40,629 nt of DNA from Parcubacteria group bacterium ADurb.Bin115 (GTDB lineage Bacteria > Patescibacteriota > Patescibacteriia > Patescibacteriales > UBA12465). The stretch lies in the NCBI GenBank assembly GCA_002070735.1, contig MWDX01000028.1, positions 1-40,629 of the forward strand. Direction: 5' to 3'. Under the pieces are notes generated by a model. The model was not told the origin of the DNA and ran no database searches. It was given only the letters and a program-made list of their open reading frames with translations. Within the stretch, counting starts at the first letter, position 1, and each line of letters opens with the position of its first letter. This document shows, piece by piece, positions 21,799 to 23,944 of the stretch. Both the position numbers and the translations under genes were made by a program.

Positions 21799-21941
21799 TT
21801 AACCGAAGGTAGCCACCCTGCAATGCCCTTGGTAGAACAACAGGTACACTAGAGCTTCGTCCTTCCTGGTCCTCTCGTACTAAGGAAGGGCCTCTTCAAG
21901 TTTCCACGACCACAGTGGATAGGAGACCGACCTGTCTTACG

Positions 21942-22576
21942 CATGTTTTCACTTATTACTAAGTGCATGGACTATGCTTTCATCCTGAAACGCTTTCAGG
22001 AGGCCGACGTTTAGTCTCTACGGGGTCAACTTATGTTTGCTGCGTTTTTTAGAATAATTTATCTTTACAAACTTATTGATTAAATCCATTAATTTAGAAA
22101 AATCTTTGATATTTTTTACTAAATCTTTTTTTCTAAAAATTTCTTCTAATTTGCGATTGATAATATATTCTAATATTCCGTCTTTTCTCTTACGCAAATA
22201 GCCACAACTTAACAAGTTACAAATTTTTGGAAATTTTTTTCATCTTTGGCTGATTGAAAGAGAGCTATGTAAGAAGCAATCTGAAAGCCATAATGATAAA
22301 CGATAAGTATCATTCGGTTTCAATCTTACATAAATACTACTATCACCATCGATAAATCCTGCTAAGTAAGCTAATTGAGTTTGCATTAATTTTAACATAA
22401 GCGACTTCCCTCGATATTATCCTAACATATGACAGGTTAATTTTCTATTGCCTGTTAGGATTCCATCGATATGAGTCAGCTTTTTATGCCAATATCAATT
22501 ACTCGATATTGCCGCCGTATATGATGTCTTACCTCTGGATTCAGAGCGTTTAATAGCCAATATTATTAGCTGCTAA
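21942..22576 (-). mobile_element. Group I intron at 23S position 2593
   Basis: Joining TTCAGACCGT (ending at 22577) to CGTAAGACAGG (starting at 21941) restores the peptidyl-transferase loop sequence of E. coli around U2593. The exon ends in U and the intron ends in G, as group I introns require. Core elements are visible: AGAGACTAAAC (R, GACTA at 22012-22016) and AAAGCATAGTCC (S, 21969-21980) form P7. The intron is 635 bases and carries a LAGLIDADG reading frame upstream of R. Site 2593 is the site of the Chlamydomonas reinhardtii chloroplast intron that encodes I-CreI. Confidence 0.88.
22018..22398 (-). pseudogene. I-CreI-like LAGLIDADG endonuclease with in-frame TGA
   Basis: From ATG 22398 a 126-codon frame reads YLAGFIDGDSSIYVRLKPND at residues 11-30. 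This aligns closely with the LAGLIDADG helix and first strand of I-CreI, with the catalytic Asp kept (D19). The segment GYLRKRKDGILEYII aligns with a later I-CreI strand. The frame is broken once, by TGA at 22240-22242 (codon 53), near the I-CreI Arg52/Trp53 pair, and then continues to TAG at 22018-22020. About 30 residues fewer than I-CreI remain at the C-terminus. The single stop suggests recent inactivation of the homing enzyme. Reading TGA as an amino acid is possible but not supported by the core genes. Confidence 0.75.
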
Positions 22577-22580
22577 ACGG

Positions 22581-22633
<53 letters not shown>

Positions 22634-23206: not shown

Positions 23207-23944
23207 CTTCACTTACTTAATATTTCTATTAAGAATGGACTTTATCTTACTCGTGATATGAGTTTAATGCTTCTAAGATAAACGGCGCTGATTCTTTATT
23301 CTGCCTGTTCATTCTTGAAGCGATAGTGATGATATGTTTGATGCCTTCAATGGTCAAATGTTGACCGGAATTCATCAACTTTATAATCTCCTTAAACTTG
23401 AAATAATCAAATTTCTTTTGAGTTAGGAGCGGATATTTATCGAAGTGGGGGATGACATATCTGTTTATATGGTCTAACGATCTTATTCGAAGTTCCTGAC
23501 GCGTGTCATGATTTACTCTGACGACGCCAGCTCCGAAATAAGTCTTAAGCGCATATAACACTTTGATATCTTTCTCATGTTGGACAACTCTGAATTCCGG
23601 TAATACTTGAAAACCAGATTTCATCGAATCGTTATGATTAATGCCAACATAAAATGTACCCTCACCATCAACAAATCCGCTAACCCAATAGGGATTCACC
23701 TTCATATTTTAGAGTCTCAGTTTTTAAGTCTCTGAGGATTATTAATCCTGCGCGTTTGCCCCGTGTATCAAGAGATTTTTACTGGAGTAGACACCCCGAG
23801 TACTTTTGATCTTTTGAGGATTTTCACGCATTTTACTGAGTATTTTAGACAACCATGGCTTTCGCCATAGCTAGGCAACGAACTTTGTTATTTATCAATT
23901 TATAATCGTCCCAGTCTTTTGCGGTCTATATGATAAACCGCAAA
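23207..23944 (-). mobile_element. Group I intron at 23S position 1931
   Basis: The exon sequence CTATAATCGTCCTAAGGT (ending at 23945) joins AGCGAAATTCCTTGTC (starting at 23206). This recreates the universally conserved E. coli 1910-1945 region with insertion after U1931. The exon ends in U and the intron ends in G. AGAGACTTAAA (R, GACTT at 23726-23730) and AAGATAAAGTCC (S, 23237-23248) pair as P7. The 738-base intron holds a LAGLIDADG gene between R and S. Group I introns at 1931 are known from Thermotoga 23S rRNA, and the overlapping I-CeuI site at 1923 is a homing hotspot. Confidence 0.9.
23247..23705 (-). CDS. LAGLIDADG homing endonuclease
   Basis: This intact 152-residue single-motif LAGLIDADG protein has WVSGFVDGEGTFYVGIN at residues 8-24 and the ALKTYFGAGVVRV and YPLLTQKKFDYFKFKEII segments usual in this family. 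Single-motif members work as homodimers that cut the intronless 23S gene at the insertion site. The ATG begins 21 bases after the intron R element. The TAA stop overlaps the S element by two bases, so the coding sequence fills the P8 region of the intron. It may also help splicing as a maturase, which cannot be read from sequence. Confidence 0.92.
   Translation of the reverse strand: MKVNPYWVSGFVDGEGTFYVGINHNDSMKSGFQVLPEFRVVQHEKDIKVLYALKTYFGAGVVRVNHDTRQELRIRSLDHINRYVIPHFDKYPLLTQKKFDYFKFKEIIKLMNSGQHLTIEGIKHIITIASRMNRQNKESAPFILEALNSYHE

Follow-up and report, generated by a model that had tools for sequence, protein, structure and literature searches.

The 23S rRNA gene in the 40,629-nt stretch of Parcubacteria group bacterium ADurb.Bin115 DNA analysed here (the window) is split by an insert that holds a damaged frame resembling I-CreI, which raises the question of whether this insert is a genuine intron and what has become of its gene. 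Very probably it is a formerly mobile L2593 intron, expected to self-splice, in which the I-CreI-type gene is dead and the ribozyme has been kept, a reading that draws on its structure, its site, its lesions, and intact and empty relatives.

The L2593 insert and its ribozyme

The minus strand of 21942-22576 separates GAGCTGGGTTCAGACCGT from CGTAAGACAGG in the 23S gene. In G004, of the same genus, the exons are uninterrupted, with 99% identity over 142 joined flank bases, and an exact empty site was found in 46 of 98 relatives, G004 among them; the site is also empty, with a CGCGAGACAG variant, in G053. Counting back from A2602 in CGURAGACA places the insert after U2593, that is, at L2593, the site of the I-CreI intron. 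The empty-site relatives and this count bear out the original prediction of an insert spanning exactly 21942-22576 on the minus strand after U2593. Both splice joints, defined jointly by P1 and P10, fall exactly at the predicted positions: P1 (CCGU/GCGG) is paired in all 27 homologues and has its U·G pair at the 5′ splice site, P10 is UACG/CGUA and the last intron base is G.

The insert has the features of group I introns, with a P3-P7-P8 core and a P4-P6 domain, and all helices pair in the window copy, including P7 as originally proposed. Over the 27 introns 93.5% of cells pair across P1-P10, in a structure hand-read from one sequence of the same set, and compensatory changes occur in P2, P3, P4, P5, P6a, P8, P9 and P10; some of the 27 sequences lack P10, P2 or the last P7 pair. 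Judged by sequence and pairing, the segment is thus a real group I intron in the 23S gene of an uncultured Patescibacteria (CPR) bacterium. Its ribozyme part carries 16 private differences in 257 sites. In J8/7, where AAGGUA has become AAAGCA, two bases differ from the nearest relatives and one of them is unique among the 27, which may leave the ribozyme slightly impaired; the first change (G to A) is also present in G067, whose endonuclease gene is intact.

Features of the L2593 intron and its flanks (window coordinates)
Feature	Position	Strand	Details
Group I intron, 23S position L2593	21942-22576	minus	635 nt; empty sites in relatives and P1-P10 covariation, 27 homologues
5′ exon end GAGCTGGGTTCAGACCGT	22577-22594	minus	exon side of P1 is CCGU; P1 invariant
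3′ exon start CGTAAGACAGGTCGGTCT	21924-21941	minus	CGUA pairs in P10; read from sequence
Internal guide sequence UACG|GCGG	22512-22519	minus	P10 strand 22519-22516, P1 strand 22515-22512
P2 hairpin CAAUAUC/GAUAUUG	22490-22511	minus	compensatory changes
P3 5′ strand GCUGAC	22475-22480	minus	3′ strand 22003-22008; compensatory changes in four pairs
P4-P5 domain	22411-22469	minus	P4 paired in 27/27; compensatory changes in two pairs
LAGLIDADG_1 (I-CreI-type) homing endonuclease ORF, broken, in L6	22018-22398	minus	126 codons + TAG; ends form P6a
Lesion 1, 7-bp insertion TTTATCA, frame +1	22294-22300	minus	alignment with G002, G006, G082, G021, G035
TGA, codon 53	22240-22242	minus	out-of-frame triplet, no mutation; same GATGAA in G002, G006, G035, G032
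Lesion 2, 1-bp loss in A-run near codon 56, frame restored	22223-22225	minus	position approximate within run
Lesion 3, in-frame 69-bp deletion point	22151-22152	minus	about codons 82-104 of intact gene gone
P7 5′ strand GACUA	22012-22016	minus	3′ strand UAGUC 21970-21974
P8 hairpin	21983-22001	minus	compensatory changes
J8/7 UGAAAGCA	21975-21982	minus	nearest relatives UGAAGGUA; U to C found in no other of 27
P9 hairpin CACUUA GUAA UAAGUG	21950-21965	minus	compensatory changes in five pairs

The search with the Rfam group I model (RF00028) proposed for 21942-22576 did match, in two pieces (21.0 bits at 21949-22093 and 15.3 bits at 22368-22469), but both fall under the gathering score of 50 bits, a detection threshold rather than a biological definition. 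The shortfall arises because the match is interrupted by the L6 ORF, as it is in intact relatives, whose 3′ halves score 22.9-33.1 bits (32.3 bits in the closest, G002). The ORF-less 237-nt intron of G063, at the same site, reaches 56.5 bits, above gathering.

The endonuclease gene in L6 and its lesions

The L6 frame matches Pfam LAGLIDADG_1 (PF00961) with 35.3 bits against a cut-off of 23.1, and its nearest solved relatives are I-MsoI, I-CreI and I-CvuI (phmmer: I-MsoI and I-CreI), in agreement with the I-CreI homology claimed at the outset. Intact relatives of the ORF align with all three along nearly their whole length, and in G002 and G006, of the same genus, 698-nt introns carry intact 147-codon genes. 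Both termini of the ORF lie within the P6a helix, so that the RNA also constrains its conserved ends.

As described earlier, the frame contains the LAGLIDADG motif, the catalytic Asp and 'KPN', and its codon 53 (22242-22240) is TGA. The description of a single lesion, one TGA in an otherwise open frame, does not survive comparison with the intact same-genus copies, which reveals three indels (+7, -1 and -69). The 7-bp insertion follows codon 33 and is an imperfect tandem copy (TTATCGT TTATCAT), one base off its source. GATGAA is read in frame as Asp-Glu (GAT GAA) by G002, G006, G035 and G032, and its TGA became a stop only because of this insertion. The lengths balance, with 441 + 7 - 1 - 69 = 378 bases corresponding to the 126 codons observed. 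The alignment to I-CreI that had been suggested confirmed the homologue and exposed the loss of the Lys98-equivalent strand: the deletion takes out 23 codons including KPYLILKRRQA, and the lost segment EEILSLIKVIKPYLILKRRQADL corresponds in the alignment to QPFLKLKQKQAN of I-CreI, the strand that carries the active-site Lys98. With two frameshifts and a 23-codon deletion, a complete frame with the active-site strand is absent, and several conserved residues have changed (codons 20 G to S, 40 P to S, 77 T to I and 133 D to K). A search for a second copy of the gene elsewhere in the genome found none. The L6 ORF is, to judge from these comparisons, a pseudogene of the I-CreI-type family.

Private substitutions, counted where G002 and G006 agree, place 7, 8 and 19 window differences at codon positions 1, 2 and 3, and the changed codons comprise 15 synonymous and 13 non-synonymous ones. 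With a third-position excess still visible, most of the divergence must have accumulated while the gene was under selection, and its loss is recent. The indels relative to intact copies and this third-position bias uphold the view of a degraded, recently lost gene.

Alternative readings and the proposed history

Readthrough or recoding of the TGA, giving a working endonuclease or maturase, had been raised as an alternative, and it could appeal to a frame free of stops on either side of the TGA and to an intact LAGLIDADG helix. It fails on several counts and we regard it as extremely unlikely: no homologue reads the stretch preceding the TGA in this frame and, if the frameshifts were bridged, the 23-codon gap that includes the Lys98-equivalent strand would remain, so the product would lack that strand owing to the 69-bp deletion, which refutes readthrough as a source of an I-CreI-like active site. 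An altered code was likewise rejected, with RF2 present in the genome (prfB) and TGA serving as the stop of pyrH in the window, the one gene of the 29 checked there that has this stop. A second prfB-family match (G000:C22:14376-15398; 298.5 bits, short of the cut-off for prfB, and containing one TAA) is possibly prfA. That the indels are instead assembly or sequencing errors in a gene that is really intact is very unlikely. The draft assembly, in 37 contigs and probably metagenome-derived, and the position of one indel within an A-run lend this some weight, but a 7-bp duplication one base off its source together with a 69-bp deletion would be atypical of short-read errors, as would the changes at several conserved residues.

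The ribozyme itself might be splicing-dead, with 23S fragmented or retaining the insert as in IVS-type rRNA fragmentation, a possibility suggested by the J8/7 changes, in particular the unique U to C, and by the 3′ half scoring about 10 bits less than G002 with RF00028. We consider it very unlikely, given that the P1-P10 helices all pair, that the first J8/7 change is shared with G067 and its intact endonuclease, and that a 635-nt insert left next to A2602 should be lethal where, as here, the genome yielded a single copy of the 23S gene.

In the history that we favour, that of a once mobile intron with a dead gene and a retained ribozyme, guanosine would bind at P7, CCGU/GCGG with its U-G pair would set the 5′ splice site, the terminal G together with P10 would mark the 3′ site, and the transcript would self-splice, presumably also in vivo, and so make the peptidyl-transferase region whole again. 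The gene in L6 would once have encoded an I-CreI-type endonuclease, homodimeric by analogy, which may have cleaved L2593 sites that were still empty and carried the intron from host to host. Here the gene has been killed by the 7-bp duplication, the compensating 1-bp loss and the 69-bp deletion. The ribozyme would have been retained because unspliced 23S should be lethal.

L2593 introns in relatives and in known systems

Among the 98 relatives of the census, this genome included, the 5′ exon pattern was present in 67; G001, G003 and G007 were left out, their contigs being broken close to the site or without the exon pattern. At these 67 sites, 47 are empty, 13 hold an intact endonuclease gene and the window copy is freshly broken; two introns have ORF remnants (G023, 327 nt; G048, 315 nt), two are ORF-less (G010, 260 nt; G063, 237 nt), one (G057, 585 nt) contains an unrelated 68-codon ORF in its L6 and one (G016) is cut by a contig end. 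Intron and host are in conflict. G035, of the same family, is 96.0% identical to the window in the exons and 72.9% in the intron, whereas G082, of another family, is 81.3% identical in the exons and 78.6% in the intron. The endonuclease tree contradicts the host families, with G082 grouping with the window's genus (support 100/99), and descent as one clade within the family is rejected by the AU test, in which one very long branch (G017) was included (p-AU 1.1e-7). Homing between hosts would be the natural reading of this conflict. It seems rather likely that in this Patescibacteria order a single position, L2593, displays the homing cycle in all its stages (empty sites, intact and freshly broken genes, remnants, ORF-less introns and an unrelated ORF), and that invasion and decay rates would be directly measurable there in bacteria.

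A bacterial intron at L2593 is already known from cyanobacteria (PMC1995217) and CPR (PMC11270868). LAGLIDADG_1 genes are abundant at L2593 (23IS12) across CPR, where many ORF-less 23S group I introns have been reported too (Tsurumaki et al. 2024, PMC11270868). These CPR introns share with ours the clade, site, group I type and single-domain LAGLIDADG_1 ORF; the main text of that report contains no decaying ORFs at the site, whereas the window copy has three indels. The cyanobacterial introns of Synechococcus C9, S. lividus C1 and Thermosynechococcus elongatus (Haugen et al. 2007, PMC1995217) lie at the same site, with a single-motif LAGLIDADG gene and a similar length (744-748 nt), but their ORFs are of full length and P7.1 forms a large extension, at a place where the window, G002, G006 and G082 have no insert. 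The algal organelle introns encoding I-CreI, I-MsoI and I-CvuI have the homing site and the endonuclease family in common with the window intron and differ in that the host here is bacterial and the endonuclease dead.

Endonuclease decay after fixation belongs to the standard homing cycle (PMC3229294; PMC1995217), and the window copy is an early stage of this expected, textbook cycle of gain and loss. The stage is recognisable from a third-position bias still visible in the dead gene and a ribozyme that has been kept. With its intact, remnant, ORF-less and empty relatives, it forms a compact natural series for tests of the cycle in a clade of bacteria where rRNA introns abound.

The same 23S gene holds a second group I intron, at L1931 (23207-23944, minus strand, 738 nt; RF00028 29.3 bits), with an intact 152-aa LAGLIDADG_1 gene at 23247-23705. 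Both introns are thus of group I with a LAGLIDADG_1 ORF, but the L1931 intron differs in its site, its intact ORF and an enzyme only distantly related to that at L2593. Elsewhere in the genome, an 86.8-bit group I intron with an HNH-like broken ORF lies in a His-like tRNA gene missed by ARAGORN (L001 1501-1770, G000:C32:46311-46580), and another of 76.9 bits interrupts a tRNA gene in a tRNA cluster (L002 1501-1746, G000:C36:5801-6046). In the G057 intron at L2593 (L070, G057:C41:12000-13900), similar GCGCAGGCGGGAAT-like hairpin repeats occur in the L1 and P8 loops. In the window itself, a glycosyltransferase-like gene at 1057-1980 also appears split over several frames.
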